56,163 bases of DNA. Origin: Acidimicrobiia bacterium. GTDB lineage: Bacteria > Actinomycetota > Acidimicrobiia > IMCC26256 > PALSA-555. Positions 5,850 to 24,984 of this stretch are shown here, in pieces; position 1 is the stretch's first letter; every line of letters starts with the position of its first letter. Location of the stretch: positions 1 to 56,163 of the forward strand of contig DASZJD010000003.1 in the NCBI GenBank assembly GCA_035948415.1. The letters run 5' to 3'. The translations under genes and the position numbers were made by a program. The notes under the pieces are model-generated. The model was given only the letters and a program-made list of their open reading frames with translations. It searched no databases and was not told where the DNA came from.

Positions 5850-7253
5850 ATGGCGCGGGCGAGGGTCGAGGTCGGCGTCATCGTCGCGGTCGCGGCGCTC
5901 GTCGCGGCGGGCGCCGCGGGCACCACCCGCAGCGCGTCCGGCTCGCCGAGCGGCGCCGCCACCCTTCGAGCCTCGGCTGCCGACGCCGCCCGACGGGCGG
6001 GCCCCGGCGTCGATCGGATGGCCTTCCAGGCCGGCGTCGAGGCCTACGTCTGGGGCTTCCCGCTCGTCACCATGTCGCGGACGCGCGGCCAGGTGCTCTG
6101 CGGCATTCCCGTCAACACCCTCATCAACGTGCCGCGTCTGCTCGATGCGGGATCGCGAGTCGTGGTGACCCCGAACGCGGACACGCTGTACTCGTCCGCG
6201 TTTTTGGACCTGCGTCCGGGCCCGATGGTGCTCCGAGTCCCGGCCGTCCGGGATCGGTACTACGTGTTCCAGTTCCTCGACATGTACACGAACACGATCG
6301 CCGACGTCGGGACCCGCACCAACGGTGGCCGCGCCGGTGCGTACGCGATCGTCGGCCCCGGGTGGCACGGGCGGCTCCCGACCGGGACGGGCCGAATCAC
6401 GGCCCCCACGCCGGACGTCTGGGTCATCGGTCGAACCCTCGCGGCCTTATCGCGCGACGTCGCCGGCGCCGCGGCCGAACAGCGGCGGTACCGCCTCCAG
6501 CCGCTCTCGAGTCTCACGCCCCGGGCCGGGGCGAGCGCTCCGGCGTGCTCGCCGCCGTCGGCGCCCCGGCCGAGCTTCACGGGTGAGCTGGCGACGGCCA
6601 TAGGCGCCGACCCTCCGCCCCCACGTGATCGGCCGATCGTCGCCGACCTGGCCGCCGCCGGCATCCGACCGGGCCTCGTGCCGAACGCGGCCGCGCTCGC
6701 GACCACCGAGGCCAGTCGGGCCGCGGCGCTCGAGATCATCCGACGCGTCGGCAGCCGCCTGACGACGGCGCGGAACGGGTGGACCCGACTCCACGGCACC
6801 GGGAGCTACGGGACCGACTACATCACGCGCGCGGTGGTCGCGATGGTCGGGCTGGGGGCGAACGTCCCCGACGAGTCCGTCTACTACTTCGCGGCGACCG
6901 ACGAGGGCGGCGCGCCGCTGAGCGGCGCGGCCTCCTACGTGATCCACTTCCGGCCGGGCCAGCTCCCACCGATCGACCCGCGCGCGTTCTGGTCCATCTC
7001 CCTCTACGGACCCGACCACTTCTTTGTCGCCAACCCGGTCGATCGGTACGCGGTCGGGGACCGCACGGAGGGTCTGACCCGCGGGCACGACGGCTCGCTC
7101 GACGTCTTCGTCTCCCACTCGCCCCCGCCGGGCCACGAGGGGAACTGGCTACCGGCGCCGGCCGGCAGCTTCAACCTCGTCCTTCGTGCCTACCTGCCGG
7201 GACCTGGTATCCGCTCCGGCTCGTGGACGCCGCCTGCGGTCCGACCCGGCTAG
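5850..7253 (+). CDS. DUF1254/DUF1214 domain secreted protein
   Basis: A 467-residue protein with an N-terminal signal peptide or anchor (hydrophobic residues 7-24 followed by a Ser/Ala-rich stretch). The DUF1254 part covers about residues 55-200, with the EAYVWGFPLVTM and TPNADTLYSSAFLDL motifs. The DUF1214 part covers about residues 310-450, with FWSISLYGPDHFFVANP and a closing NWLPAP-like segment. This pair is widespread in bacteria and its biochemical role is unknown. The start ATG 5850 follows GAGGAG closely. The C-terminus is complete. Confidence 0.85.
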   Translation: MARARVEVGVIVAVAALVAAGAAGTTRSASGSPSGAATLRASAADAARRAGPGVDRMAFQAGVEAYVWGFPLVTMSRTRGQVLCGIPVNTLINVPRLLDAGSRVVVTPNADTLYSSAFLDLRPGPMVLRVPAVRDRYYVFQFLDMYTNTIADVGTRTNGGRAGAYAIVGPGWHGRLPTGTGRITAPTPDVWVIGRTLAALSRDVAGAAAEQRRYRLQPLSSLTPRAGASAPACSPPSAPRPSFTGELATAIGADPPPPRDRPIVADLAAAGIRPGLVPNAAALATTEASRAAALEIIRRVGSRLTTARNGWTRLHGTGSYGTDYITRAVVAMVGLGANVPDESVYYFAATDEGGAPLSGAASYVIHFRPGQLPPIDPRAFWSISLYGPDHFFVANPVDRYAVGDRTEGLTRGHDGSLDVFVSHSPPPGHEGNWLPAPAGSFNLVLRAYLPGPGIRSGSWTPPAVRPG

Positions 7254-7397
7254 GCGGCACAGCACCCCCGGCGCCGGCGCCACGGGGACACCGCGCCCGC
7301 CGCTCAGGTCGCGGGCGCCGCCAGCCGATCCCTTCTCGATGCCAGTGTCGTCGGGGTCCTCGGCCGTGGACGGCCGCAGCGCGACGCGGGCGGCGGG

Positions 7398-8306
7398 ATG
7401 ACGGCGGTCGCCGAGGAAGCGAACCCACCGCCCGTCGGTGGGGCGGCCGCGGCGCTTCGCGGCGTCGATCGCGGCCTGTTCCAGGTTGTGGCGCTGCTCT
7501 GGATCTACGCGCTCTACGACCTGGTCCGCGTCGGGGTGAGGGGATCGACGGCGGCGGCCACCGCTCACGCCCACCAGGTCGCGGCCCTCGAGCACTCCCT
7601 CGGCCTCGGCGCGGAGCGGATGCTCCAGCAGGGAGCGATGCGCGTCCCCGGGCTCGTCGGGGCGTGCAACGCGTACTACGCGATGGGCCACCTCGCCGTC
7701 CCGCCGATCGCCCTCCTGATGCTCTACCGCCGGGCTCCGGCGCGATACCGACACTGGCGGAACGTCTTCGTCGCCATGCTGGGCCTGGCGCTGGCCACGT
7801 TCTGGCTCTATCCGCTCGCGCCCCCGCGGCTCATGCCCGGTCCGGGCCAGGTCATCGACACGTCGAGGGCGTACTTCAGCTTCAGCCGGACGCCGCTCGC
7901 GGCGCTCGGGGCCAGAGCCGGGTCGTCGGCGCCGAGCTGGGGTGGCGGCACGAACCCCTTCGCCGCGATGCCGAGCCTGCACGTCGGGTGGGCGCTGTGG
8001 ACGACCCTCGCGCTGTGGCCCGTGCTCCGGCGTCGATGGACGAGGCTGCTCCTGGCCCTGTATCCGATGGCCATGGTCCTCGTCGTCATCGTCACCGGCA
8101 ACCACTGGCTTGTCGACGCGCTAGCCGGTGCGGCGGTGACCGCGCTCGCAGCCGCGCTCGTCACCGCCGGATCGCGGGGCACGCGGCGCCTGACCGGCTC
8201 GACGGGGACGGCGTCACCAGCAGAAGACCGAGCCGGCGGCCGGGCCCCGGTCGCGGGTCTCGAACCCGTCCGTCTCTCGGCGTCGACCGGACCGCGTCTT
8301 CGCTGA
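7398..8306 (+). CDS. PAP2-superfamily membrane phosphatase / inositol-phosphotransferase-like
   Basis: A 302-residue polytopic membrane protein of the PAP2 group that acts on lipid phosphates or transfers phosphoinositol (Aur1/Ipt1-like). The three PAP2 signatures can be seen: YPLAPPRLMPG (domain 1 region), AMPSLHVGW with the catalytic SLH, and TGNHWLVDALAGA with the second histidine and aspartate. At least five hydrophobic helices separate them. The Arg/Ser/Gly-rich C-terminal 50 residues look disordered. The variant domain 1 (no KxxxxxxRP) favours the inositol-phosphotransferase-like branch over a classic phosphatidate phosphatase. ATG 7398 lies 144 bases after the preceding stop. Confidence 0.82.
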   Translation: MTAVAEEANPPPVGGAAAALRGVDRGLFQVVALLWIYALYDLVRVGVRGSTAAATAHAHQVAALEHSLGLGAERMLQQGAMRVPGLVGACNAYYAMGHLAVPPIALLMLYRRAPARYRHWRNVFVAMLGLALATFWLYPLAPPRLMPGPGQVIDTSRAYFSFSRTPLAALGARAGSSAPSWGGGTNPFAAMPSLHVGWALWTTLALWPVLRRRWTRLLLALYPMAMVLVVIVTGNHWLVDALAGAAVTALAAALVTAGSRGTRRLTGSTGTASPAEDRAGGRAPVAGLEPVRLSASTGPRLR

Positions 8307-15355: not shown

Positions 15356-16423
15356 CTAGGGCGTGACCGGCGGGTAGTAGTTCTCAGCGCCGATCTTCTG
15401 AACGTCCTCGAACCACGAGCCGTCGTACGCGTCGGTCCGTCCCTGGCGCATCGGGTCCTCGAGCTCCCAGGCCTGGCGCTTGTAGGTCCAGTTGGCCGGG
15501 AACAGTCGGTGCGCGGCCCGCCAGTGCGGGATGGCCGCGGCGTGGTCACCCGATCGGTGCAGGTGCTCGCCGAGCTCGAACTCCGCCGCCGCCAGGGCCT
15601 CGTCGGTGGCTCGGGGCTGGGAGCGGCGCACGACCTCCTCGGCGCTGAGCGCGTAGCGGCTCGAGGCGCCGTGGTCGACCCAGTCCAGGAGCATGGCGAG
15701 GTAGCCCTCCGGGTCGGTTCGGATCTTCCGGGCCTCGGCCAGCATCGCCGCGGTCTCCGGCGGGAGCGTCGTGATGTCGACCGTTCGCAGCTGCTCGAGC
15801 ACCGGGTTGCGGCCCGGGAACGCAGGCTCGGCCGGACGCACGATCGTGCCGTCCTCGTTGATCCAGAGCCCGTTCGGGACGTTCACGACGCCGAAGCGCT
15901 CGTCGAGCGAGTGACCCTGGTCGATGAGCGACGGATGCTCTGGCTTCGCGGCCTCGATGAACGGCCGCGCCGCCTCAACGTCGACGTCGAGCGCCACCGT
16001 CACGATCTCGACGCCGCGCGGATGCAGCCGGGTCCGCAGCTCCTGCCACACGGGCAGGTCGAAGCGGCATCCTCACCAGGACGCCCACGCCAGCAGCACC
16101 ACCTTCTGCCCCCGCAGGCTGGACAGCCGGAACCGGTGGCCGGCCAGATCGGGCAGCTCGAGCTCGGGCGCGCTCGCCGTGGTCAGCGCACGGCCGGTGA
16201 CGGCGGTCTCCGGTCCGAGCGCCACGAGGCCGTGCTCATCGTCGCGGGCGATCGGCATCCCGAGGGTGCGCGCGACGACGGTCACGTCGACCTGACCCGA
16301 GGGCGTCGCGTCGGTCGGCAGCGGGACGCAGATCTCCGCCTTGCAGGCACCTTCGGGCTTGATCGCCCACCCCGTCCCGGATTCGAAGGCGCGGACGTCG
16401 GTCGTGAGGTCGGTGAGGATCAC
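15356..16423 (-). CDS. TlpA/ResA-like redoxin selenoprotein (TGA read as selenocysteine)
   Basis: Read through TGA at 16073-16075, the gene encodes 355 residues. The thioredoxin-like domain follows a 90-residue N-terminal region with a CxxxxC pair (C27, C32). Its active site reads LLAWASW-U-GCRFDLPVW, with Sec at residue 117 and cysteine at 119, where TlpA/ResA relatives have cysteine. Downstream the thioredoxin fold continues (GVVNVPNGLWINEDG), then a helical TPR-like tail ending in YYPP. I chose GTG 16423 because GGAGG lies 10 bases upstream and the LLM gene stops 40 bases before. No signal peptide is seen, so a cytosolic thiol reductase or peroxidase is likely. Ordinary annotation would split this into two fragments. 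Confidence 0.85.
16034..16067 (-). promoter_or_regulatory. Candidate bacterial SECIS hairpin in the TlpA-like selenoprotein gene
   Basis: On the transcribed strand the sequence after the UGA folds by hand into a lower stem CCGC/GCGG (16064-16067 with 16034-16037), a 5 x 4 internal loop, and an upper stem CCUGCC/GGCAGG (16053-16058 with 16042-16047) capped by CGUGU. The apical loop starts 20 nucleotides after the UGA and has a G in its first two positions. This agrees with the general bacterial SECIS description (loop 16-37 nucleotides from the UGA). It would recruit SelB with selenocysteyl-tRNA. Confidence 0.7.
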
Positions 16424-24345: not shown

Positions 24346-24939
24346 TCAGCTCGCGCCGGGCTCCGCGGGCACGCCCAGCGGCGAGCCGTCGGCCAGGCTG
24401 GCCCGCGTCCGCTCGTCGAGCGGCGTGTGGAAGGTGGCGTGGAAGCGGTTCACGACGTTCGCCACGCCGATCGTGCAGCACAGCTCCATGAGCTGCGGGA
24501 GCGTGAAGTAGCGCCGGAGCTCGGCGTAGCGGTCGTCGTCGATCGCGTCGCCGCGCGTGAGCAGCCGGGCGTACTCGACCACGGCCCGCTCGACGGGCGA
24601 GAGCGACCCGTCGGGCGGCTCGGGCTCGCCGACGGCGGCGAGCTGGGCCTCGCTGAGTCCGACGCTCCGACCGAGCGCCCGGTGGGTGGGCACTCAGTAG
24701 TGGCAGCGGTTCTCGGTCGACGCGGTCAGGTACGCGAGCTCCCGGAGGGGCGGGTCGATCGACGAGCCCCAGTAGGCCGCGGCGCTGAAGCGCATGAACC
24801 CGTCGAGGATCGCGGGGTGGTTGGCGAGGGCCCGGATGACGTTGAAGTCCGCACCGGTTGCGGCCAGGCCCTGGAGCAGCGCGCGCGTCTTGGGGTCGAC
24901 GTGCTCGTCGTCGGGGCCGACGAGCGGGATCCTCGTCAT
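24346..24939 (-). CDS. AhpD-like carboxymuconolactone decarboxylase-family selenoprotein (TGA read as selenocysteine)
   Basis: Read through the TGA at 24694-24696, the gene encodes 197 residues. The helical AhpD fold has the signature ENRCHY-U-VPTH: C79, Sec82 and H86 occupy the CxxCxxxH positions of AhpD-type peroxidase partners. The second half carries LSPVERAVVEYARLLT and LPQLMELCCTIGVANVVNRF, typical of the family's C-terminal helices. The start ATG 24939 follows GGAGGAGG. It lies 45 bases after the VOC gene in the same direction, in an operon with an alcohol dehydrogenase. Likely a thiol/selenol peroxidase or disulfide reductase. Ordinary annotation would stop it at 81 residues. Confidence 0.86.
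24661..24679 (-). promoter_or_regulatory. Candidate bacterial SECIS hairpin in the AhpD-like selenoprotein gene
   Basis: On the transcribed strand, GGCGCUC (24673-24679) pairs with GAGCGUC (24661-24667), seven pairs including one G-U, around the loop GGUCG. The loop starts 21 nucleotides after the UGA and begins with two guanines, which fits the general bacterial SECIS pattern and nearly equals the 20-nucleotide spacing in the TlpA-like gene. Folded by hand. Confidence 0.7.
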
Positions 24940-24984
24940 CGTCCTCCTCCGCCGGGGCCGATGGTACGGGAGGCGCCCGCCGCC

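Follow-up and report, generated by a model that had tools for sequence, protein, structure and literature searches.

A single-domain AhpD-like protein of the carboxymuconolactone decarboxylase (CMD) superfamily, encoded by an Acidimicrobiia bacterium, is almost certainly a selenoprotein. From its sequence, the in-frame UGA of its gene would be read as selenocysteine (Sec) by means of a SECIS hairpin and SelB, and the product would perform redox chemistry with the AhpD relay. We observed the UGA position, the Sec machinery, the conservation of the SECIS, the orthologues, the active-site residues and the predicted fold. The gene lies in a stretch of 56,163 nucleotides, the whole of which was analysed and is called the window here. 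Its features are as follows.

24346..24939, minus strand: predicted AhpD-like/CMD-domain selenoprotein gene; by translation, 197 codons from ATG plus a terminal TGA, with one internal UGA
24694..24696, minus strand: in-frame UGA, codon 82, at the second Cys position of CxxC (C79-H-Y-U82)
24661..24679, minus strand: putative bacterial SECIS hairpin GGCGCUC-GGUCG-GAGCGUC, loop at 24668-24672, 21 nt after the UGA
24943..24950, minus strand: Shine-Dalgarno-like GGAGGAGG, 3 nt (ACG) before the ATG, recognised only by its position in the sequence

An earlier note on this DNA had read ENRCHY-TGA-VPTH in this frame, followed by 115 codons past the TGA. The frame, the coordinates, the motif and the codon count all held on re-reading. 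The active-site motif was N77-x-C79-H-Y-U82-x-x-x-H86. The codons before the TGA and those after it both showed coding-like usage, and this TGA ranked first among the in-frame TGAs of the window with coding-like flanks. Standard gene callers end the gene at residue 81 or begin it behind the UGA, so that it would be annotated as two fragments. The read-through protein was matched by the Pfam CMD domain (PF02627) at 52.8 bits against a cut-off of 23, and its score for the AhpD core domain (TIGR00778) was 30.3 bits, above the cut-off of 27.8. The UGA had been proposed to occupy the column of the second cysteine of CxxC. Alignment with Cys homologues and solved AhpD structures agreed with this, as this column was Cys in the solved structures of PA0269 and further AhpD-like proteins.

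The hairpin behind the UGA was found as described before, with seven pairs and the loop GGUCG; the distance of 21 nt is from the UGA to the loop, and the stem begins 14 nt after the UGA. Folding of its 19 nt gave −11 kcal/mol (z −3.6). This energy, the seven pairs, the GGUCG loop and the 21-nt spacer agreed with all the numerical limits that the bacterial SECIS model of PMC13188914 sets. When the peptide was recoded synonymously 5000 times, 61 of the recodings equalled the score of the hairpin. In the genes of the window, the score was equalled at about 1% of in-frame codons, and at 0.2% when the loop had to hold GGU. None of the 31 window genes ending in TGA had such a SECIS-like hairpin behind its stop (0/31).

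Whether the hairpin was conserved at synonymous sites in relatives was examined with the orthologues. It was, and the stem showed covariation as well. In the four complete orthologues, the SECIS codons 86-92 were identical in 51 of 51 comparisons with the same amino acid, versus 499 of 898 elsewhere. The codons CTC GGT CGG AGC were the same across all five complete genes. GGT is a minor Gly codon in the window (8.4%), yet it was invariant in the SECIS. In a 16-sequence alignment that included the CFYU subfamily, stem pairing was 100% (112 of 112 cells were standard pairs), and 10 stem cells had changed on both sides. When the partners were slid by 1 to 3 columns, pairing fell to 25-51%. One of the aligned sequences had supplied the structure, which biased this control somewhat in its favour; the double changes are independent of that.

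Five orthologues (L145, L146, L147, L148 and L157) with 39-46% identity were obtained from a phylum-wide sample and then from one other family of the same phylum. The window protein and its orthologues were co-linear along the entire length. The UGA was in the same column in L145-L148, L156 and L157, and also in L149 to L152, which are phylum relatives at a greater distance. Close relatives ending at the same TGA had been named as the point to watch; the orthologues all kept the UGA and continued with homologous sequence. L156 (G753:C58) kept the UGA, had the loop UGUCG instead of GGUCG, and contained an apparent frameshift downstream; it is apparently a decaying gene or an assembly error. As a separate observation, the L145 locus (G553:C147) contained tandem CMD genes at 6739-7233 and 7322-7924, with one internal TGA in each.

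These orthologues bear on the reading that a Cys-type AhpD gene is interrupted here by an ordinary stop, a nonsense mutation or an error of sequencing (TGC/TGT to TGA), which would make the gene a pseudogene or an artefact. One substitution would suffice for this, and the genome (3.4 Mb, 98% complete) is a draft of 133 contigs. However, independent genomes of another family shared both the TGA and the hairpin, which refutes this reading in practice. TGA was also found in this column in two paralogues from other contigs of the host genome, and the coding-like codon usage flanking the TGA on both sides spoke against it too. We therefore regard it as very improbable.

The genome also encoded the machinery for Sec insertion, which the earlier note had left as a check: SelA, SelB, SelD and tRNA-Sec were all found. 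On contig C17, selA (470 bits) adjoined selB (287 bits together with its neighbours in the frame). The tRNA-Sec was on the same contig, 18 kb from selA/selB (66.7 bits), and ARAGORN called it tRNA-SeC with the anticodon TCA (UCA). The selD gene was on contig C85. As a yardstick for SECIS elements, the fdhA homologues of the genome were also inspected; their matched frames had no TGA. A general code change, with TGA decoded for example as Trp, or non-specific read-through would also leave the frame open through the TGA, as was seen. But TGA was the stop of 31 of the 43 predicted window genes, homologues had Cys in the column in question, and selA, selB, selD and tRNA-Sec were present together with a conserved SECIS hairpin. 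Decoding other than as Sec is thus the least probable of the readings considered, and insertion of Sec is strongly preferred.

Proteins of this kind are known. In 2005, a study of the Sargasso Sea described 27 AhpD-like and 4 CMD-domain selenoproteins with CxxU (PMC1088965), and the earlier note was correct in naming marine metagenomes as a source of AhpD-like ones. The GOS data set gave 299 and 70, respectively, in 2008 (PMC2398784), and a review of 2026 lists both kinds in a table (PMC13188914). The proteins from the Sargasso Sea and GOS (COG2128, PF02627) have in common with the window protein the CMD/AhpD domain, a CxxU motif with Sec at the second Cys, and a bacterial SECIS directly behind the UGA. 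Unlike the window gene, they are metagenomic fragments, and the likeness is drawn from their published descriptions. The window gene belongs to this known kind, a placement that is well supported and not surprising.

The window protein was also compared with curated families. Among full-length NCBIfam models, TIGR01926 (peroxidase-related enzyme), a listed AhpD-like selenoprotein family (PMC13188914), matched it best, with an alignment that covered residues 9-172. The score of 49.0 bits was below the cut-off of 81.8, so the protein is outside this family; its orthologue L145 scored 69.1. TIGR01926 did include the own-genome paralogue L044 (99.1), the class relative L085 (144.3) and the phylum relative L150 (90.1). 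NF053654 (GroundWater_YciW, YciW-related (seleno)protein) shared the fold and a full-length alignment with the window protein, whose score was 38.9 bits where the cut-off is 310. NF041238 (AhpD_rel_CFYUT, Sargasso hypothetical protein 1) shared CxYU and had a similar SECIS loop, placed one codon later, whereas its proteins have about 350 residues with an extra N-terminal part; the window protein scored 20.3 against a cut-off of 175. The Cys-type AhpD-like structures PA0269 (2o4d, 2ijc), 3lvy, 3c1l, 6e8l, 6k40 and 2prr shared the fold and the E-C-Y-C-H site, with Cys where the window protein has Sec, at 18-28% identity. The window protein was below the cut-off of every full-length NCBIfam/equivalog model tested, and its subfamily may therefore be unnamed. 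With this gene, a subfamily with good support is added that lies outside the curated NCBIfam equivalog models.

No orthologue was detected in the sampled genomes of the order and class of the host (395 genomes for the class, E up to 1e-12), and the window gene may therefore have been acquired from elsewhere. A Cys-containing orthologue of the exact subfamily was not found either; Sec/Cys exchange was visible only in comparison with remoter members of the family. Scanning genome contigs with the window protein gave a distant Cys relative (L021) as the sole match, and scanning viral contigs gave none. In the plasmid search, all matches were below 60% identity, with the best-ranked at 28-35%. A TGA listed within L024 was rejected, as it was L024's own stop. 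In the protein tree (SH-aLRT only), the window protein was on a long branch and placed without support, so a number of Sec gains is not claimed.

The proton relay of PA0269 consists of Glu36, Cys48, Tyr50, Cys51 and His55 (PMC3141380). By spacing and alignment, these residues corresponded to E67, C79, Y81, U82 and H86 of the window protein, all of which were invariant in the five complete proteins. The structure was predicted with a pLDDT of 93.7 as an all-helical AhpD fold. Its nearest solved structures were 3lvy, 3c1l, 6e8l, 6k40 and 2prr, and the best PDB matches were all AhpD-like/CMD peroxidase-related proteins. Solved AhpD relatives have weak peroxidase activity (PMC3141380), and the function of the window protein may therefore differ. 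Upstream on the same strand were a glyoxalase-like gene and a zinc alcohol dehydrogenase gene, and a sulfotransferase gene was on the other strand. These neighbouring genes do not name a substrate.

From its family, the window protein would most likely be a CxxU selenol/thiol peroxidase or a disulfide-reductase partner. We propose the following course. SelB and Sec-tRNA-Sec would bind the hairpin with the GGUCG loop 21 nt behind the UGA, and Sec would be inserted at residue 82 instead of termination. Translation would stop at the second UGA, which has no such hairpin. In the folded protein, Glu67, Cys79, Tyr81, Sec82 and His86 would make up the AhpD proton relay. Once His86 had activated it, the Sec82 selenol might then attack a peroxide or a partner disulfide, and Cys79 would resolve Sec82 as a selenylsulfide. 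A cellular thiol system would presumably reduce the selenylsulfide; both the electron donor and the substrate are suggested by analogy.

The selenoprotein might also serve a chemistry other than peroxide reduction, such as reductive dehalogenation (as Bmp8), disulfide isomerisation, or reduction of nitrogenous or organic electrophiles. The debrominase Bmp8 (6ohi, 6ohj) was among the nearest folds with TM-scores of 0.73-0.74, CMD paralogues were widely diversified in the same genome (11 matched places), and ahpC was absent from the annotated neighbours of the window gene. However, the full AhpD proton relay was retained, and several other top fold matches were labelled peroxidase-related or antioxidant proteins, mostly by annotation. 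Such a chemistry is a serious possibility, and we still favour the thiol/selenol peroxidase or disulfide-reductase role.

Among the 11 CMD matches of the genome, three genes had a UGA at the second Cys: the window gene, L044 (C92, 1501-1953, NRCHYULSTH) and L045 (C28, 1501-1953, DCGYURNV). A SECIS-like hairpin was behind each UGA, with the loops GGUCG, AGUU and GGUC, respectively. Across the class, the pattern N-x-C-x-Y-UGA-x3-H was present in 153 of 395 sampled genomes, and a reversed-pattern control gave about 10 hits. The hairpin beat synonymous recoding (p < 0.05) in 47 of the 57 pattern genes that were read closely. The selA gene was above the cut-off in 255 of the 395 genomes. Two motif hits (L119 and L120) were rejected as chance, and L117, without a hairpin, was a doubtful hit.

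AhpD-like selenoproteins thus appear common in this class of Actinomycetota, and this breadth is the most interesting part of the result. It is an even call whether the following picture is right. The window gene and its orthologues would be a CMD subfamily that has no name and has so far shown only Sec members, and the class would be a hot spot in which CMD/AhpD-like proteins gained Sec in several distinct lineages (three or more paralogous ones in the genome studied), with the SECIS loop types GGUC, CGUGN and AGUU kept under selection. The class offers a natural collection of Sec/Cys and loop variants with which the benefit of Sec to an AhpD-like enzyme could be studied. The genomes with NxCxYU (loci L085-L144) included a large number close to 1 Mb in size, of genus g36 and with the NECEYU type of motif. 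One subfamily held both Sec members (L099 and L104) and a close Cys member, the above-mentioned L021 from an Acidimicrobiia MAG.

Another selenoprotein had been proposed in the window (16075, minus strand), and its TGA ranked second among the in-frame TGAs with coding-like flanks. The hairpin behind this TGA (16073-16075) was no better than synonymous shuffles (1554/5000), and a SECIS was not supported by that test. The gene, at 15356-16423 on the minus strand, matched NF041054 (WAxxUGC_long, ResA-like WAxxUGC) with 552 bits against a cut-off of 300. Its read-through protein contained WASWUGC and belongs to this already curated family.
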